A DNA stretch of 22,052 nt, taken from positions 1-22,052 of the IMG/VR virus record IMGVR_UViG_3300050017_000056; one strand, given 5' to 3'. Below the pieces are notes generated by a model. The model made no database searches and had not been told where the DNA came from. It saw only the letters and a list, made by a program, of their open reading frames with translations. This document shows positions 4,444-14,922 of the stretch, piece by piece. The DNA is from a virus. Every line of letters starts with the position of its first letter. Position 1 is the stretch's first letter. Both the position numbers and the translations under genes were made by a program.

Positions 4444-6783
4444 CTATGATTTTGATTGAAAATCTACTATATTTTTTATCATTATCATTGGAGGTAAATT
4501 ATAAAAGCTGCCACTATTTTTTAATCTCCTTTTAATACCCTTGTTTAATAATATTATTTTTAAATTTTGTTTGGCCTGCCCTTTTAATCTATCTGATAAG
4601 CTTAAGCTACTCACAATATCAGAAAATTTATACTCCTGCCACTGTTCTTCAGGTGCACTCCAGTCTAACCTGTCTTCAAGTATTTGCTCTAACTCATCTA
4701 CTTCCAAGTGTAAATTTTGTTGATATTCTGCTAATAATTTTTCTTCTTTATTAGGATATATTTTCTCTCCGCTTTTATAAAGATGATATGTTTCAGCCCA
4801 AATCTGGTCACGTTCATTATCTAGATCCTTCCATATATCCTTTTTGCCTGTAAATACATCGATAGGCCAAAATCTTCTATTTCCTGTTTTGTCTTTTAAA
4901 AATTCTGTGCTATTGGTGGTACCTGCATATATCCATTGAATAGGAGCATGAGTTGATCTTTTACCGTAGGCTAGTCGTGCATTAAACTCTGTTTTTGTTA
5001 AAAAATGTTTTATTTCTTCTGACTCTGTTTTTCTCATTCCAGCCAGCTCCCCAAATTCTGCTATAAATTTTCCTTGCATAATTTCAATAACAATTTTATC
5101 ATCTACTGCCTTTAGAGAATCGGTAAACCATTCACTTCCAGCTAATTTCTCAAGAAATGTACTTTTGCCAATATCGGGTTTTCCACTTAAAACAATCATA
5201 TAATCAAACTTTATTCCAGGTTTATAGATTCTGGTTACTCCAGCAACTAACCATTTTTTCATTATAAATCTATTATATATGGTATCTTCACAACCAAAAT
5301 AATCAATTAAAATTGTATCAACTCGGTTCACACCATCCCAAATTAAACTTTCAAAATAATCTTTTACAGGATGAAATGCTTTATTTTTGAAAGCTAATGT
5401 TATAGCATGATCATAATTGTTTTTAGGATCTATATAAATTGCTCCTAAAAACTCTCTAAGTCCACTATCATCTGCTCCTGTCCAATCTCTCACCCTGTTA
5501 TCATCATCCCAGGGTAATGCCTCCAGTGCTATATTTCTATTAGAAAACTCATTTAATGCAATTTTTCCTTTAAGTAGTGGGTGATTCTCAATAATAATTC
5601 TAAAATTTTTGATAGTATTTTTTAATTTTCCAAATTCCGTATAAGATAGTTTTGATAACCAATTATCCTCGCCCTCTACCACTTCAAAATCTTCTGAAGC
5701 ATTTTCTATAATATCTTTACCAAGTTGCATTTTTACCTTATTGTCAGAACTTGCAAATTCACACATTTTAATATAAGAAGGTATTCTATTAGATGGAGTA
5801 TCTTCTTTAGCTTCATCATCAAGTTCACCGAATTTATGAATTCTAACTAAGTCGAAGGCATTACATAGTATTCCTGATGTTGGATCAGTACTATGATGAC
5901 TATAACTAAATTTATCTTCGTAAACTACAACTCCGCCTGTGGTACTTCCATCTACAAAGGTGTATCTTGTATCATCAGCACCAGCAGTATATACATCATC
6001 TAAGAACTCTGCTATTGCTTCACTTATATTATAGGTTCTGCAAAATGCACCTATGATGCCTTTCTTTTCTAAAGGATCTTCTTGTCTCTTGATAGCACTA
6101 TTTATCTTTGCTTTTGATCTTGAACTCTCTGGCCAGTAACTTACATCCTGCCAACCAAATGTATATCTTTCTAATATTTCATCAGGATTTAACCAGGCTA
6201 AGTCTTGTACTTTGAAAATATATTCCCCATTACTTGAAGTGCTTGGCCAATACATAAGTCTAAAGGGTTCATAAGTTGTGTCATCGAACTGGTCAATACC
6301 TAAATCATCTGCAATCATACGTGATATTGCTTGATATTCATCAGGTAATACTGGCCTGCTAAGTGGAATGATTAATCTTAGTCTTTGGTTATCAGGTGCA
6401 TGTGTATGAGTTGAATATATTAGACAACCAAAACCCCATAATAGCTCTATAGTGGACCATATATCACCAGCTACATAATCTAGATCTAATGTTAATAAAG
6501 TTCTATTAGCAACATTTTCAGCCTTCCTGCGACCATTTTTTAATGAACCTCCAACAAATCCACCAACATCTTTAATATTGTCTTTTTCGGTCTTAGCCAT
6601 TTTCTTATATTCTTCATAAGATTCAGGAGTTCTCATCGTATTACTTAGCTTTTCAACTAGCTCAGAATAGAGCATGTTCTTATTCTTCCAGTGAATTTCT
6701 TTTTTACTTTTTCCAGTGGCTAGTGTTATAAAACCATCAAATTTAATTTTTGTAAGTAGCTTATTTTCTTTAATAGATTCCAC
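4444..6783 (-). CDS. Prim-pol / VapE (virulence-associated E) primase-helicase
   Basis: A 779-residue two-part replication protein. The N-terminal part (about 75-205) looks like an archaeo-eukaryotic prim-pol: LTLDLDY holds the metal-binding DxD (D100, D102), STHTHAP (124-130) fits the catalytic histidine motif, and RLRLIIPLSR follows. The C-terminal part (about 440-690) is a VapE superfamily-3-like ATPase, with Walker A GKPDIGKST (534-542), Walker B around FIAEFGEL and the GTTNSTEFLKDKTGNRRFW signature. It would prime and unwind DNA at the origin. It begins with GTG after AGGAAG, seven bases from the upstream stop. The adjacent iterons (4194-4440) are its likely target. Confidence 0.92.
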   Translation of the reverse strand: MESIKENKLLTKIKFDGFITLATGKSKKEIHWKNKNMLYSELVEKLSNTMRTPESYEEYKKMAKTEKDNIKDVGGFVGGSLKNGRRKAENVANRTLLTLDLDYVAGDIWSTIELLWGFGCLIYSTHTHAPDNQRLRLIIPLSRPVLPDEYQAISRMIADDLGIDQFDDTTYEPFRLMYWPSTSSNGEYIFKVQDLAWLNPDEILERYTFGWQDVSYWPESSRSKAKINSAIKRQEDPLEKKGIIGAFCRTYNISEAIAEFLDDVYTAGADDTRYTFVDGSTTGGVVVYEDKFSYSHHSTDPTSGILCNAFDLVRIHKFGELDDEAKEDTPSNRIPSYIKMCEFASSDNKVKMQLGKDIIENASEDFEVVEGEDNWLSKLSYTEFGKLKNTIKNFRIIIENHPLLKGKIALNEFSNRNIALEALPWDDDNRVRDWTGADDSGLREFLGAIYIDPKNNYDHAITLAFKNKAFHPVKDYFESLIWDGVNRVDTILIDYFGCEDTIYNRFIMKKWLVAGVTRIYKPGIKFDYMIVLSGKPDIGKSTFLEKLAGSEWFTDSLKAVDDKIVIEIMQGKFIAEFGELAGMRKTESEEIKHFLTKTEFNARLAYGKRSTHAPIQWIYAGTTNSTEFLKDKTGNRRFWPIDVFTGKKDIWKDLDNERDQIWAETYHLYKSGEKIYPNKEEKLLAEYQQNLHLEVDELEQILEDRLDWSAPEEQWQEYKFSDIVSSLSLSDRLKGQAKQNLKIILLNKGIKRRLKNSGSFYNLPPMIMIKNIVDFQSKS

Positions 6784-6789
6784 TGTTTA

Positions 6790-7047
6790 TCACTTCCTAC
6801 TCTCTAATTGAATCAATTCTTCTGTCCTTTCTATAATCATATTTGCTCTTTCTTCGCTTACATGTGACTCTCTTGCTGCACTGAAAATGCAATCATTTAT
6901 AATTTTACTTATATTTTGAATCATTGTTGAAGCCTTCTGAATTGCCAATTTATTTATAAACTGTGTTTGCATTGGTGTTAATTTATCTACTGCTTTTGAA
7001 TATACTTTATCTAAATTGTGTTTTTCTCTTCTAGCGTTCCTGTTCAT
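6790..7047 (-). CDS. Hypothetical phage protein (85 aa)
   Basis: Not recognised. It is a small, basic N-terminus followed by an all-helical body with an IQLESRK end. The ATG follows directly on the TAG of the upstream gene, and its stop lies six bases before the VapE start, so the three genes are coupled. The position suggests an accessory replication role; no motif supports a specific one. Confidence 0.75.
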   Translation of the reverse strand: MNRNARREKHNLDKVYSKAVDKLTPMQTQFINKLAIQKASTMIQNISKIINDCIFSAARESHVSEERANMIIERTEELIQLESRK

Positions 7048-7233
7048 CTACATCTTCTCTCTTTCATTAAATTCATTATTTAATAATTTTTCTATGATAC
7101 TCACTAATTCGCCTTTGCTACAGTCCTTATCAAAATACTCCATTCTTTGGTGATAGGTGGCTTGTCTTAATTCTCTGCTATAAAATCCGAGGTCTGTATC
7201 TTTTTTATAAACTTTTATAAATATTTTTTCCAT
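7048..7233 (-). CDS. Hypothetical phage protein (61 aa)
   Basis: Not recognised. It begins with a strand-like EKIFIKVYKK segment and ends in a helical acidic tail. A GGAGG site stands before the ATG. It abuts both neighbours without a gap, which supports it as a real member of the operon. Confidence 0.75.
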   Translation of the reverse strand: MEKIFIKVYKKDTDLGFYSRELRQATYHQRMEYFDKDCSKGELVSIIEKLLNNEFNEREKM

Positions 7234-7551
7234 CTATTTAACCTCCAAATAATCTATGTATTTTTGACACATTGCTGCAATCTGAATACTTTCAGCACTA
7301 TTATATAGAGCATGTTTTTTTAATGAATTACACAATGGAATTATTTGTTCTTTTTTATGATTAAATCTTACAGAATTCCAAAGCATATCTAAAATCTTAT
7401 TAACCTTAGTATTTTCAATATCTGCTTCCTCTACTTCTTCTTTTAACACCGCCCAGGCTTCATGATTTCCATGGAACTGCGGGAAAACTGCATTTGCACG
7501 TTTTAATTCATCTATAACCAATTCATCTATATTCTCTAATAATTCATCCAT
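7234..7551 (-). CDS. Small helical phage protein, possibly MazG-like
   Basis: A 105-residue all-helical protein. The segment FPQFHGNHEAWAVLKEEVEEA, followed by a helix with ILDMLWNSVR, resembles the first helices of phage proteins of the all-alpha NTP pyrophosphatase (MazG-like) group, where paired glutamates bind magnesium. The second EExxD motif of active enzymes is not clear here, so activity is doubtful. It starts at ATG after AAGGAGG. If active, it would hydrolyse noncanonical nucleotides during phage replication. The family call is tentative; the gene itself is secure. Confidence 0.6.
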   Translation of the reverse strand: MDELLENIDELVIDELKRANAVFPQFHGNHEAWAVLKEEVEEADIENTKVNKILDMLWNSVRFNHKKEQIIPLCNSLKKHALYNSAESIQIAAMCQKYIDYLEVK

Positions 7552-7634
7552 TCTTTATCCTCCTTAAGATATTCTTGAATATTCATGTCTAATGTTATCT
7601 TCTGACATCTCTGCATAAATTAAAGTGATTCTTT

Positions 7635-8369
7635 TCAACTATTAGCTAAAATTTCCATAGCTTTTGCATATTTTTTTGTGCATTCTTTCATAGCAGTACA
7701 AACCTCAGCTATAGTTGCTTTTCTATAAGTTATTTCGTTACTATTACAAGTAAGATAGTCAACTGTTACATCATAGTAATTTGCTAACTTATTTAAAGTG
7801 GTTATATTGGGTTCTAATAATCCGTTTTCATATTTTGTTATAGTGGGTGCTGTTAAATCAATTTTTTCAGCTAATTGTTTTTGAGTTAATTCTTTTCTAA
7901 TTCTCAGTTCTCTCAATCGGTCACCTATACATGAATTTACTATTGGTGCATCTTCAACCAATTCACTCACACTTAAATCAAGAACAATTGCTATGATTTT
8001 TAAAACATCTAAACTTGGGTTACTATCTTCATTGCTCTCTATGTAAGAAATGTATTGACCAGTCTTTCCTATTCTTCTTCCTAATTCTCTTTGGCTTATT
8101 CCAATATCTTCTCTAGCCTGTTTTATTTTGTCCCCTAATGTGTTATTGCGTATACTTATACCATCAGGGGGAGTATCATCCATAAAATCAAATACATTTA
8201 TGCTCAATGCAGTTGATAATTTTTCTAAAATATTCATACTAGGGTTTTTATTCTCATTTCTTTCTAATTTCTGTATATATACAAAACTAACTCCTGAAAT
8301 TTCGCCTAATTTTCTTTGACTTAATTTATTAGCGTTTCTATATGATTTTAACTTTTTGCCTATCAACAA
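7635..8369 (-). CDS. Triple XRE-type helix-turn-helix regulator
   Basis: This 244-residue protein carries three successive Cro/CI-type (XRE) DNA-binding domains: about residues 3-61, 78-137 and 148-206. Each has the SQxxLG or TQxQLA second helix followed by the recognition helix. The last 35 residues form a helical tail. There is no peptidase or ligand domain. Most XRE regulators have one domain and act as dimers; three in one chain is unusual and could read a longer or repeated site. It starts at TTG (no ATG nearby), with AGGAG ten to eleven bases upstream. It follows the terminator of the HNH-like gene, so its promoter is unclear. Confidence 0.88.
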   Translation of the reverse strand: MLIGKKLKSYRNANKLSQRKLGEISGVSFVYIQKLERNENKNPSMNILEKLSTALSINVFDFMDDTPPDGISIRNNTLGDKIKQAREDIGISQRELGRRIGKTGQYISYIESNEDSNPSLDVLKIIAIVLDLSVSELVEDAPIVNSCIGDRLRELRIRKELTQKQLAEKIDLTAPTITKYENGLLEPNITTLNKLANYYDVTVDYLTCNSNEITYRKATIAEVCTAMKECTKKYAKAMEILANS

Positions 8370-8398: not shown

Positions 8399-8431
8399 TT
8401 TTAATTAAAAGAGTGGACTTATTACCACTCT
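8399..8431 (-). terminator. Intrinsic terminator of the HNH-like gene
   Basis: Leftward, AGAGTGG pairs with CCACTCT (8425-8431 with 8410-8416) around an eight-base loop and is followed by TTTTAATT. The stop codon of the HNH-like gene lies in the hairpin. It would also reduce readthrough into the triple-XRE gene. Confidence 0.75.
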
Positions 8432-9186
8432 CTCAAAGGTTTATTTAAAGCTTTTTCTATGTTCCAACCTCTCATTAATCTCTTTTTAACTTGATAATAT
8501 GTAAATCCATATTCTTGAGCAAACTCTGAAACTGTCTTAGTTTTTTCTTTATAAGTTATTAACTCGCCTGTTTTTACTGGCTTAAAAGCTTCTTCAATGT
8601 TCAATCCTTTATTTATTCTTTCTTCCACTAAGTTATAATTCTTTTTATATTTTTCAGCTAATTGTGATATTGTTAAAGTTTCGCCTTTATATGCTACTTT
8701 ATGGTTGCTTCTCCTGTTGTTAGCCTGTGCTTTTATAGTTACCCAAGTACAATTCTCTTTGCAGTAATTTCCATTAACATCAATTCTTTCAATAGAAAGT
8801 CCTTCTTTAAAGGTGGCTCCCATGTCATTGTAAAATCGTTCAAAGGTATCCCATTTATCACTAATTTTTATTCCTCTACCACCATAATCTTTATAACTTT
8901 TACTTTTAATATCATTACAACGTTTTTTCATATTGCTATAAACTTCATATATCTTGCTCCCTGATAATCCATGAGTACGTCTTGAATCTCCGCTCCATCT
9001 TAAACATCCACAGCTTGTCTTATGTCCACTAGTAAGATAACTTGAAATTACAATTACTATGTTCCCACAGTCACATTGACACTCCCATTGATATGAATTA
9101 TGCTTATCATTTGCACGCTCAGAATACTCACATAAAACTTGTAATTGACCGAATTTTTTACCTTTTAAATCCAATTTCTTTGACAT
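8422..9186 (-). CDS. HNH-like/AP2-type phage endonuclease-related protein
   Basis: This 254-residue protein has an N-terminal zinc-knuckle-like part (C36, C38, C40, then C59 and C61) and a YGGRGI segment (101-106). A degenerate HNH-like core, ERIDVNGNYCKENCTWVT, lies at about 133-150. The C-terminus has two similar helix-turn-helix repeats of about 40 residues (164-204 and 210-250; compare LTISQLAEKYKK with KTVSEFAQEYGF), like the DNA-binding modules of homing endonucleases. Such proteins occur as freestanding mobile genes in phages. It has its own promoter and terminator and is divergent from a ribbon-helix-helix gene. Whether it still cuts DNA is uncertain. Confidence 0.75.
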   Translation of the reverse strand: MSKKLDLKGKKFGQLQVLCEYSERANDKHNSYQWECQCDCGNIVIVISSYLTSGHKTSCGCLRWSGDSRRTHGLSGSKIYEVYSNMKKRCNDIKSKSYKDYGGRGIKISDKWDTFERFYNDMGATFKEGLSIERIDVNGNYCKENCTWVTIKAQANNRRSNHKVAYKGETLTISQLAEKYKKNYNLVEERINKGLNIEEAFKPVKTGELITYKEKTKTVSEFAQEYGFTYYQVKKRLMRGWNIEKALNKPLREW

Positions 9187-9209
9187 AATTTATCACCTTC
9201 CATACTTAT

Positions 9210-9218
9210 ATTATAGCA
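9210..9218 (-). promoter_or_regulatory. Extended -10 promoter for the HNH-like gene
   Basis: The leftward sequence TGCTATAAT is a full extended -10 element, about 24 bases upstream of the ATG at 9186. No good -35 is seen; the upstream side is occupied by the 10-bp repeats. Confidence 0.6.
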
Positions 9219-9220
9219 TA

Positions 9221-9250
9221 CTTTAGAATACTTTTAAATACTTTTGAATA
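9221..9250. promoter_or_regulatory. Three 10-bp direct repeats, candidate operator
   Basis: CTTTAGAATA, CTTTTAAATA and CTTTTGAATA follow one another without gaps at 9221-9250, exactly between the two divergent -10 elements. A period of one helical turn places each copy on the same DNA face, as for cooperative binding of ribbon-helix-helix dimers. The adjacent RHH protein is the obvious candidate ligand, by inference. Confidence 0.6.
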
Positions 9251-9274
9251 AAATATATTAAAATGTGTTATAAT
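9244..9274 (+). promoter_or_regulatory. Promoter of the ribbon-helix-helix gene
   Basis: An extended -10, TGTTATAAT (9266-9274), with a weak TTGAAT at 9244-9249 (19-base spacer). The upstream element overlaps the third 10-bp repeat, so a bound repressor would block it. The ATG lies 18 bases past the -10. Confidence 0.6.
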
Positions 9275-9292
9275 AATTTAGAGGTGATATTT

Positions 9293-9430
9293 ATGAAAAA
9301 AGTAAAAACATCAATAAGCATAGATGAGGACATTTTTGATAAAATAAAAGCTACTGGTGAAGTTGAGGATAGAAGCTTTAGTCAGCAATTAAATAAAATA
9401 CTTAAGGATTATCTCAAAGAGAAGGAATAA
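9293..9430 (+). CDS. Arc/MetJ-type ribbon-helix-helix protein (45 aa)
   Basis: This 45-residue protein has the full ribbon-helix-helix plan: a strand KVKTSISID (about 3-11), helix A EDIFDKIKATG, and helix B SFSQQLNKILKDYLKEK. Such proteins dimerise through the strand and bind short repeated sites in the major groove. The start has GAGGTG six bases upstream. It is the only plus-strand gene inside the leftward block and is divergent from the HNH-like gene, with three 10-bp repeats between them, so autoregulation and control of the neighbour are likely. An antitoxin role is possible, but no toxin partner is seen. Confidence 0.8.
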   Translation: MKKVKTSISIDEDIFDKIKATGEVEDRSFSQQLNKILKDYLKEKE

Positions 9431-9449
9431 AAACCCTTCTCTTTATACC
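9416..9449 (+). terminator. Hairpin terminator of the RHH gene
   Basis: A ten-bp perfect stem, AAAGAGAAGG (9416-9425) with CCTTCTCTTT (9435-9444), surrounds the RHH stop codon. The T-run after it is short and broken, so strength is uncertain. It also overlaps the stop of the DUF3310 gene on the other strand. Confidence 0.6.
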
Positions 9450-9751
9450 TTTTGTTCCTGAATTAACTTTTCTATATACCATTGTGCTTTTTTTAAATCT
9501 TCTGTTCCATTCTTAAATTTATATCTGCTTATATACTTCAATATATTCCCTACTAAATACCCTTGAAATCCTTCACCTGTGACATCTTTTATTGTGTCTA
9601 TAGTTTCTCTATTGCCATTTACATAATGGCTTGGATGATTAATTGTATCTGTTTTCGCTAGATAACTTATACATTCTCTATCTGTATATACTTCCATATC
9701 TTTACATTTATTTGAATTTTTATAACTACAATTAAAACATTTTATTATCAT
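9443..9751 (-). CDS. DUF3310 protein with N-terminal cysteine knuckle
   Basis: The C-terminal part is a clear DUF3310 domain: NHPSHYVNGNRETIDTI (38-54), then GYLVGNILKYISRYKFKNG (64-82) and DLKKAQWYIEKL. DUF3310 proteins are common in phages and are often called nucleotide-kinase-like, but no activity is firmly established. The N-terminus has four cysteines (C5, C8, C16, C27) that may bind zinc. The ATG is preceded by AAGGAG. It is the last gene of the upstream early block before the RHH/HNH cassette. Confidence 0.85.
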   Translation of the reverse strand: MIIKCFNCSYKNSNKCKDMEVYTDRECISYLAKTDTINHPSHYVNGNRETIDTIKDVTGEGFQGYLVGNILKYISRYKFKNGTEDLKKAQWYIEKLIQEQKV

Positions 9752-12439: not shown

Positions 12440-14395
12440 TTAATCTTTCATATAATATTTGCATTCATATCCATCTGCTTTTAATGGTAGTCCAGGAGCC
12501 CAATCTATTGATTCTCCAAAGATTTCATTTACTTCTTTTAGACTTCCTTTATTTTTAGGAGTATCTAGTATTACTTCATCATGTACATGCATCACAATTT
12601 TATATCCAGCTTTTTCAACTTTAAACATTGCCTCAGCCAAGCAATCTCTTGCAGTAGCCTGTACAATATTCTCTACAAGCTTAGGTCCGTAAGTATCTAA
12701 TGTGGTCCATTGCTTCGAGGTCTGCTCCATACCTTCATAAGTTATTATTGGTTTGTCATAAGGTCCAGGTTCAATCTTTGGTCTTATATAACTTAACTTT
12801 CTACCTGAAGGTAATTGAATAAATAAAACTCCTGGATCATAGATAAATTTAAGTCCAAACTGCATGCATACTGTTGTTTTTTCTCCTATAGCTTTTTTAG
12901 CTGCTTTATCACAATCCCACCAAAATTTAGTTATATTAGTATTGGCATTTCTCCAACTCTTGACTAGTACTGGAAGTTCATCTTCATCTACACCCATTTT
13001 CAAAGCACCCATAGCTGTAAGAGCTCCAACACTTCCACCATATCCAAGTGCTAATTCTGATATTTTCCCTTTTTGTCTTAGCGGTGATCCTTTTTTTATA
13101 GAGTCTATTGGAACTTTAAACATTTGACTTGCTGAGGCTTCATATATTTTTCCATGAGTATTGAAAACTTCAAGTCTCCATTTTTCCCCGGCTAACCAGG
13201 CTATAACTCTTGCTTCAATAGCACTAAAATCAGATACTATAAATCTATTACCTTCTGCTGGTATAAAAGCGGTTCTAATGAGTTGACTTAAAGTATCAGG
13301 AATACTGTCATATAAGAACTCAACATCATCAAATCTTCCTTCTCTTATGCAATTTCTAGCATCATCTAAGTCAGGTAAATGGTTCTGAGGTAAGTTTTGT
13401 ACTTGAACTAATCTACCTGCCCATCTACCAGTTCTATTAGCACCATAAAACTGTAATAATCCTCTCACTCTGCCATCTTTACATCTAGCATTTTGCATTG
13501 TTTGATACTTCTTAATAGAGGTCTTTGCCATAAGTTGCCTTAGTTCTAAAATTCTTTTTACATTGTCATTAGCTTCTTCTAAAAGTACAGGAATACTATC
13601 CTTTGTAAGACTTGTTACTTCATGCCCAATTCTGTCTCCTATCCATTTTTTTAACTGAGCAGGACTATTAGGATTGCCTAATCCTGTAATCTCTCTAGCT
13701 TCATTTCCAAGCCTTTTAGCATAAATGCTGTCACAGTCAATAGCTTTTTCTATAATTACTAAATCAGTGCCAACACCTCTGTCATTTATTCTTTGGTCTA
13801 ACTCCCAGAGTCTTTGCTCTGTGTCTGTGGTTTGATATTTACTTAATTTATTTCTTATATCTCTTTCAACTTCAACATCTTGAATACAATATGTTTTAAA
13901 AATATTCCACTTTTCCATATCATGTTCAGGAAGGTTTCTAGTTCTACCATCATTAGCTTTAGTTGGTTTGCAGGGTTTACAGAAATATTGTATTAAAGCT
14001 TTACCCTCTTTCATCTTTTGCTTATCTTCCTCAAAGTGCATTGCCTTACTTACCATATCCAAACTACCAGGTAAACCCATTGTCAAGCCCTTTATCATTG
14101 TGCATTGCCATTCTTCTGGTGGTGTTGGTATGCCTAAATAGTTTCTAATAGAATTTCTTTCAAAATTTGCATTAAAAGCGGTTTTAATTATATTTTTATT
14201 AGTTAAAGCTTCACTGACCTTAATTGGTAATATTTCATCATTCATAAAGTCCACTATTTTAATTTCTTCATCATTGAATGCATAAGCGAATAGTAATATT
14301 TGAAAATCAGGGGCTTCACAATATTTGTAAGCCCCTGATGTTTTAATATCTATACTGCTATATGTCTCAACGTCTATACTTAAGACGTCAGCCAT
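12440..14395 (-). CDS. Phage family-A DNA polymerase (3'-5' exonuclease plus polymerase)
   Basis: A 651-residue DNA polymerase I-type enzyme without the 5'-3' exonuclease domain. The exonuclease part has D8 and E10 (SIDVET), an AFNANFER segment (73-80) and YCIQD with D173. The polymerase part has motif A SDFSAIEARV (388-397, D389), motif B around RQKGKISELALGYG (440-453) and motif C HVHDEV (603-608, D606). All catalytic residues are present. It replicates the element's DNA with the VapE protein. The first 16 bases overlap the upstream HNH gene, and its own SD (GGAAGTG) lies within that gene. Confidence 0.95.
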   Translation of the reverse strand: MADVLSIDVETYSSIDIKTSGAYKYCEAPDFQILLFAYAFNDEEIKIVDFMNDEILPIKVSEALTNKNIIKTAFNANFERNSIRNYLGIPTPPEEWQCTMIKGLTMGLPGSLDMVSKAMHFEEDKQKMKEGKALIQYFCKPCKPTKANDGRTRNLPEHDMEKWNIFKTYCIQDVEVERDIRNKLSKYQTTDTEQRLWELDQRINDRGVGTDLVIIEKAIDCDSIYAKRLGNEAREITGLGNPNSPAQLKKWIGDRIGHEVTSLTKDSIPVLLEEANDNVKRILELRQLMAKTSIKKYQTMQNARCKDGRVRGLLQFYGANRTGRWAGRLVQVQNLPQNHLPDLDDARNCIREGRFDDVEFLYDSIPDTLSQLIRTAFIPAEGNRFIVSDFSAIEARVIAWLAGEKWRLEVFNTHGKIYEASASQMFKVPIDSIKKGSPLRQKGKISELALGYGGSVGALTAMGALKMGVDEDELPVLVKSWRNANTNITKFWWDCDKAAKKAIGEKTTVCMQFGLKFIYDPGVLFIQLPSGRKLSYIRPKIEPGPYDKPIITYEGMEQTSKQWTTLDTYGPKLVENIVQATARDCLAEAMFKVEKAGYKIVMHVHDEVILDTPKNKGSLKEVNEIFGESIDWAPGLPLKADGYECKYYMKD

Positions 14396-14922
14396 CCGAA
14401 TTCACTTCCATTCTTAATATGATAAACAGCATGTAAACTTACTCCTGTATTTTTAGATATAAATTTGCATGCATGCCCTTCTTTTAATAATCCTTTTACC
14501 TTTTGGGCTTGTGCTTTTGTGGTATTTCTCCAGGCTTTCCCTTGCTCAAAAACATCTAATATATTTTCAGTTCTAGTTCCATAAGCTAAATTATCAAGTC
14601 TATTATTTTTAGGATTACCATCTAAATGTCTTATGTCTGCATTAGCAGGTCTTTCTCCAACAAAGGTAATCATAACTAATTTATGAACTTGCATTCCATT
14701 AGTCCCTCTGCCTAATACAACCGATACATGACCGCTCTTATTATATTGACCTGGCCTTAGATTTTTACCTTTTAGGATTCTAGTAAAATACTTTCCCCAT
14801 CTTCCTTTTTGAGTTATTTCACGAGTTAAGCTTCTGACATTACCAAGGATGCTTACTTGGTAAGCACCTTCATATCCTGGTATGTCTCTCCACAACTCAG
14901 CTCCTATAGCCAACGTATCCAT
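14380..14922 (-). CDS. HNH homing endonuclease (NUMOD4-HNH)
   Basis: A 180-residue freestanding homing endonuclease. NUMOD4 occupies about 10-55 (ELWRDIPGYEGAYQVSILGN) and the HNH core about 79-125, with VHKLV (H80), RHLDGNPKNNRLDNL (H99, D101, N107, N111) and a C-terminal DNA-binding helix pair (139-170). The catalytic residues appear intact. Such genes copy themselves into phages lacking them and favour conserved replication genes. Here it sits between the DUF2815 and polymerase genes, overlapping the latter by 16 bases. The SD before its start (AGG, then seven bases) is weak, suggesting low expression. Confidence 0.92.
   Translation of the reverse strand: MDTLAIGAELWRDIPGYEGAYQVSILGNVRSLTREITQKGRWGKYFTRILKGKNLRPGQYNKSGHVSVVLGRGTNGMQVHKLVMITFVGERPANADIRHLDGNPKNNRLDNLAYGTRTENILDVFEQGKAWRNTTKAQAQKVKGLLKEGHACKFISKNTGVSLHAVYHIKNGSEFGWLTS

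Follow-up and report, generated by a model that had tools for sequence, protein, structure and literature searches.

Divergent RHH and HNH genes in a leftward operon

The window, that is, the whole stretch of 22,052 nucleotides analysed here, is a 22-kb virus record that carries an integrase gene and replication genes for PolA, primase, helicase and an SSB-like protein. Prophages of Clostridium magnum, C. manihotivorum and others contain close relatives of the replication genes, with 70–81% identity for polA. Because relatives of polA reside in Clostridium prophages and an integrase is present, the window is best read as a temperate Clostridium phage. Genes point leftward between about 19.2 kb and the small terminase gene (836), in which a tandem array encoding KVAE repeats (1465–1608) separates the N-terminal region from the terminase domain. 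A cassette of divergent HNH and ribbon-helix-helix (RHH) genes occupies positions 8404–9445 on both strands. As proposed in an earlier sequence-only reading, this 1-kb block interrupts the leftward operon: it is flanked by a DUF3310 gene (9443–9751, minus strand) and by a triple-HTH gene (7635–8369, minus strand), with the HNH gene oriented like the operon and the RHH gene opposed to it. The cassette lies in the polA–primase interval, which in relatives is anything between 50 bp and 6 kb long. The triple-HTH gene, located directly downstream of the HNH hairpin, encodes a 244-aa protein with three tandem Cro/CI-type HTH domains (HTH_3, 3e-44, three stretches); relatives were sought in viral contigs and none was confirmed.

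The minus-strand gene of the pair (8422–9186), previously called HNH-like, encodes a 254-aa HNH-type endonuclease. It matches PHROG 374 'HNH endonuclease' (1.1e-67) and PHROG 3377 (8e-59), and no Pfam model above its cut-off. The protein consists of an N-terminal Cys-rich segment (CxC..C..CGC), an HNH core and two C-terminal repeats. Residues Y80, R89, W112, R134, N145, W148, Q154 and N157 are invariant in 13 HNH homologues, and the structure model (pLDDT 81.6) displays the beta-beta-alpha order at residues 131–156. Comparison with the PDB gave no sequence match, and the fold search gave no confident family, one weak row being the HNH nicking enzyme 4h9d. Relatives of the window HNH are present in 969 annotated phage records. 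Since Arc-like genes (PHROG 3180) are absent from, or kilobases away in, the viral records with a PHROG 374 HNH, most members of this family appear to lack an RHH leash. The close HNH relatives of the window nuclease have no RHH partner, and a search of 207 Clostridiaceae genomes for a close relative of the cassette returned HNH proteins of at most 43% identity, again with no RHH partner. A second nuclease gene of the window (14380–14922), with NUMOD4 and HNH_3 domains and no RHH, is located between the SSB-like gene and polA. It occupies the same place in the contigs L049 and L119 (about 61% identity), is missing from most relatives, and is likely another homing gene.

The plus-strand gene lies, as the sequence-only reading stated, on the strand opposite the HNH gene. 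Within an open reading frame at 9263–9430, the ATG at 9293, preceded by the ribosome-binding site GAGGTGAT (9281–9288, plus strand, read from the sequence), is favoured as start over that at 9263. The gene (9293–9430) thus encodes a 45-aa repressor-like protein beginning MKKVKTSISIDEDIFDKIK, which matches the Arc-like repressors of PHROG 3180/582 (about 1e-5). Its AlphaFold model (pLDDT 92.6) matches the CopG, Arc and SvtR folds with TM scores of about 0.8–0.87, so that the profile and the structural comparison both assign a ribbon-helix-helix fold. No Pfam model passed its cut-off; weak BrnA, ParD and CcdA profile matches lie below it. Among 50,697 annotated phage records, no close relative of the RHH of the window, L164 or L176 (two of the related cassettes described below) was found, the weak matches being confined to Sulfolobus viruses and small faecal viruses.

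The two genes share a divergent promoter region with three contiguous 10-bp repeats, as had been described: ACTTTAGAAT ACTTTTAAAT ACTTTTGAAT at 9220–9249 on the plus strand (ATTYAAAAGT units when read on the minus strand). The tandem array has a score of 17/20, which none of 2000 dinucleotide-shuffled versions of the intergenic region reached, and it is conserved, as to both position and sequence, in the eight related cassettes. It occurs at this one place in the window, where single 10-mers with at most one mismatch are not enriched (23 found, 16.5 expected). The predicted operator overlaps the −35 side of both divergent promoters. The nuclease promoter (9210–9238, minus strand) comprises TTTAAA (9238–9233), a 17-bp spacer and TATAAT (9215–9210) preceded by TG; the repeat units occupy its spacer and −35, and its geometry is the same in all related cassettes. 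The RHH promoter (9244–9274, plus strand), read from the sequence, comprises the extended −10 element TGTTATAAT (TATAAT at 9269–9274) and, at a spacing of 19, a weak −35 (TTGAAT, 9244–9249) that falls within the third repeat. In several related cassettes, TTTACA or TTGCAT is found 16–17 bp from TATAAT or TATACT and overlaps the first repeat. Tandem direct repeats overlapping a promoter are also the arrangement of omega-type operators, in which the repeats are of 7 bp.

Each gene ends in its own hairpin, another feature noted earlier, with the stop codon in the loop. The hairpin at the nuclease 3′ end (8405–8436, minus strand) has a T-rich 3′ side and a folding energy of −15.7 kcal/mol (z −4.3); that at the RHH 3′ end (9416–9444, plus strand; −12.5 kcal/mol, z −4.0) forms the cassette boundary and abuts the DUF3310 stop codon. 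Similar hairpins to the latter are present in L108 and L164. A stricter terminator scan called neither end hairpin.

Related cassettes with unrelated nucleases

IMG/VR viral contigs were searched with an RHH alignment and with strict and looser operator patterns, and these routes converged on the same cassettes. The sequence-only reading had allowed that the RHH and HNH genes might never be found together elsewhere; eight further cassettes were found (L108, L164, L176/L177, L182, L184, L187, L174 and L199), making nine with the window. The strict operator pattern matched five stretches in 2.9 million viral contigs, all five with a cassette, including L108 and L164; L182, L184, L187 and L199 were gained from the RHH alignment search and the looser pattern. 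L108 and L164 are polA relatives of the window in which the RHH gene is found on the side of polA that it occupies in the window, opposed to the operon and with the same repeats, next to an HNH of a different family. The window RHH is 69–78% identical to those of L108 and L176 (69% for L108) and 48% identical to that of L164. No occurrence of the operator pattern was found in 331 Clostridia genomes. One match in 226 genomes of the order, at a response-regulator gene, and the relaxed-pattern matches L192, L194, L195 and L196, which have no RHH, were taken as chance.

All nine cassettes follow a common plan, with related RHH genes directed against the operon, a divergent nuclease gene oriented like the neighbouring phage genes, and 83–115 bp between the two starts; contig ends cut the L108 nuclease and the L174 RHH. 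The operators consist of 2–4 AAAGTAT-like units at 10-bp spacing. Across the nine, the distance from the last unit to the nuclease TATAAT is constant, with a −35-like hexamer 17 bp upstream, and the RHH promoter −35 overlaps the first unit in most. The nucleases fall into seven profile assignments, covering HNH of several types, GIY-YIG/NUMOD3 and PD-(D/E)XK, and carry the nuclease domains of free-standing homing endonucleases. Beside the PHROG 374 HNH of the window, these are PHROG 1035 endonuclease VII/HNH in L164, L174 and L108 (the last by similarity), PHROG 1271 HNH in L176/L177, PHROG 119 HNH in L199, GIY-YIG with NUMOD3 (PHROG 314 'homing endonuclease') in L184 and L187, which are 29% identical to each other, and PDDEXK_5 in L182.

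The N-terminal strand of RHH proteins such as Arc, CopG and omega enters the major groove. In the cassettes, this strand reads KTSIS in the window, L108, L176 and L182, KTSVS in L184, and KIAIT in L164, L187, L199 and the L174 fragment. The bases between the AAAGTAT units vary with it, being TTT, TTC or TTA in the five KTSIS/KTSVS cassettes and GAT in the four with KIAIT. Such covariation is the pattern that a protein–operator pair would show. Nuclease class is independent of RHH subtype: because GIY-YIG and PHROG 1035 HNH nucleases each occur with both subtypes, the leash (RHH plus operator) and the nuclease are exchanged as modules.

Among distinct loci of the RHH subfamily, a nuclease is adjacent in 9 of the 10 with the operator compared to 0 of the 4 without it (Fisher p 0.005), and a divergent adjacent nuclease is missing from all of about 21 RHH loci that are more distant and mostly clostridial (p 1e-5); these figures are descriptive, the loci having been found through the RHH or the operator and the classes assigned by hand. 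A search by RHH only, which provides a cleaner sample, gave 6 of 11 distinct contigs with both operator and nuclease and no adjacent nuclease in the other five. The related phage RHH loci L183, L185, L186 and L189 have no directly adjacent nuclease. A genuine exception is L193, in which the operator adjoins another small RHH-like gene and no nuclease. Geobacillus phage NIIg9.7, whose sole reverse gene is an RHH, was considered as a candidate and set aside, since no nuclease is adjacent.

Insertion sites

The cassettes occupy varied positions in phage genomes. Those of the window and L164 lie in the polA–primase interval, and that of L108 lies downstream of polA, where the contig ends. The L176/L177 cassette adjoins the small terminase gene, that of L174 precedes the portal gene, and that of L184 is located between the portal and head protease genes. 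The L187 cassette lies beside the replicative helicase gene, that of L199 before a replication protein gene, and that of L182 inside a DNA methylase gene.

In L182, codons 1–30 of the methylase are left on one side of the cassette, ending ...LVIAD, with the break just before the ADIPYN motif. A complete methylase stands on the other side and carries its own, 70%-similar version of codons 1–30 as a replacement 5′ end. Of 80 methylase loci, 78 are intact at this break point, the other two being L182 itself and a truncated locus. For L184, the corresponding portal and protease genes of Geobacillus phage GBSV1 overlap by 26 bp where L184 has the cassette, and because of this overlap L184 appears to have gained a block of about 1.15 kb. 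Judged from the sequences, the variety of sites, the interruption in L182 and the gain in L184 are the marks that would be expected of homing insertion.

The sequence-only reading had pointed to related phages with the same flanks and no cassette. Such empty sites were recovered at gene level for L182 and L184. None was found for the window copy: relatives without the cassette exist, with flanks too variable for an exact empty site, and the DUF3310 and triple-HTH genes, used as anchors, were not found together in relatives and gave no informative matches.

A nuclease probably under its own repressor

We consider it likely that the cassette is a self-contained mobile nuclease of the homing type, silenced by an RHH autorepressor that it carries itself. 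That the cassette proteins bind DNA, repress, cleave and home is inferred. RHH dimers would sit side by side on the 10-bp repeats and cover the −35 regions of both divergent promoters, so that the RHH would repress the nuclease and itself, and a resident phage or prophage would keep the nuclease silent. Silencing in lysogens may not be a general feature, since only 3 of 11 records, many of them fragments, contain an integrase. More speculatively, the nuclease might be synthesized briefly on entry into a cell free of RHH, or when transcription of the lytic operon reads through. Because the hairpin at 9416–9444 has no U-run on the strand of the early operon, read-through from that operon into the nuclease gene may indeed provide a lytic source. 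The nuclease might then cut cassette-free DNA at a matching site, the cassette would be copied in, and RHH would shut the nuclease off. This timing, expression on entry followed by shut-off, is suggested by analogy with zygotic induction and with restriction-modification regulators.

Three readings had been offered for the pair, a regulated homing cassette, a moron and a toxin/antitoxin-like pair; the recurrence of the pair and the gene-level empty sites of related cassettes favour the first. As a moron, the cassette would be transcribed autonomously from the prophage under a small autoregulator, to exclude superinfecting phages or benefit the host in some other way, and would not move by homing. 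Its own promoters and hairpins, its place between polA and primase, an accessory interval, and the integrase of the phage fit the autonomy that this reading implies; mobility is what it leaves out. Related cassettes are found in structural, replication and packaging regions, one of them interrupting a gene with replacement of its 5′ end, and their nucleases belong to homing families (PHROG 314, NUMOD3, PDDEXK_5), which makes a moron improbable.

We regard as very unlikely a toxin-antitoxin-like addiction pair, with the nuclease as a host-killing toxin and the RHH as an antitoxin that also represses. Many type II antitoxins commonly bind DNA through an RHH domain, and the sub-threshold BrnA, ParD and CcdA matches point the same way. 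However, the cassette RHH is bare (45–50 aa), with no toxin-binding tail, and the genes are divergent rather than co-transcribed in one operon as type II pairs are. Moreover, the partner switches between HNH, GIY-YIG and PD-(D/E)XK while RHH and operator stay constant, and PADLOC gave no convincing defence assignment for either gene. Phages commonly carry free-standing HNH genes (the 969 records above) as well as Arc-like genes, and an ordinary regulator of phage functions could have come to lie beside an unrelated HNH by descent or chance. This is hardly credible given an operator confined to the cassette within the window, an arrangement that recurs with unrelated nucleases at unrelated places, and the absence of a divergent adjacent nuclease from all of the approximately 21 distant RHH loci.

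The favoured reading, a homing-type nuclease held down by its own repressor, has partial counterparts in known systems. The seg and mob genes of T4-like phages are likewise HNH or GIY-YIG nucleases placed between phage operon genes, co-directional with them, and spread selfishly by cutting cassette-free DNA. Most of these free-standing nucleases have no promoter of their own or are kept low by RNA hairpins and terminators, and, unlike for the cassette, no partner repressor gene is described for them in the T4 review (PMC2988022). I-TevI represses itself (PMC2988022), so that, as in the model proposed here, a protein over the promoter holds nuclease transcription down; in I-TevI the nuclease is the repressor, whereas the cassette has a separate RHH common to unrelated nucleases. 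The nearest regulator is omega of omega-epsilon-zeta, an RHH that is strictly a repressor and shows cooperative binding at repeats within its promoter (PMC3874152), although the likeness to the cassette RHH is in mode of action only. Omega and PaaR (paaA-parE), both small RHHs like that of the cassette and both strictly repressors (PMC3874152), control toxin-antitoxin operons and have no nuclease partner. C proteins of restriction-modification systems are also cassette-borne DNA-binding proteins that time nuclease expression on cell entry (PMC3874152), but they activate and thereby delay expression, whereas the cassette RHH would be a repressor that ends it. A large survey of phage nuclease genes (PMC10448857) makes no mention of ribbon-helix, and the literature searched, which did not include subscription papers or preprints, yielded no description of homing nucleases controlled by an RHH.

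It has long been asked how free-standing homing nucleases spare their carrier, and the answers, drawn for the most part from T4, have been the choice of promoter and the structure of the RNA. A swappable repressor–operator module common to HNH, GIY-YIG and PD-(D/E)XK nucleases would be a new answer. We tentatively suggest, as a possibility more doubtful than the reading of the cassette itself, that RHH and tandem 10-bp operator form a general, interchangeable leash travelling with selfish nucleases of unrelated folds, under which the nuclease would be expressed zygotically in naive cells and stay silent in resident ones. Carriers of the same subtype might be mutually immune, and a second family, RHH_3, would apparently play this part beside another HNH and perhaps beside an IS200-type transposase. 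If the leash model holds, expression should be triggered by entry, immunity should be specific to the subtype, and the rules for swapping operators should depend on a few beta-strand residues. Searching with the operator pattern is also a cheap way to find unannotated mobile nucleases.

Other RHH arrangements were observed during these searches. In L186 (approximately 4977–5132), the RHH gene faces a small RHH-like gene followed by an HNH_3 protein; by eye, the C-terminal part of this protein resembles an RHH, with no Pfam support. The L176 record contains a second divergent pair (6816–7799) of an RHH_3-family protein (7623–7799) and an HNH; the tandem operator over the −35 is again of 10 bp but differs in sequence (AAGTCCTTGC/AAGTCCTTGG). 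No literature was found on RHH_3 beside an IS200-type transposase. Finally, L218 pairs an RHH_3 protein (PF12651, 2e-21) with a divergent transposase of this type (Y1_Tnp, 8e-32), possibly as the same kind of leash on a transposon; L226 is a related copy of this locus, and both are located in genome G183.
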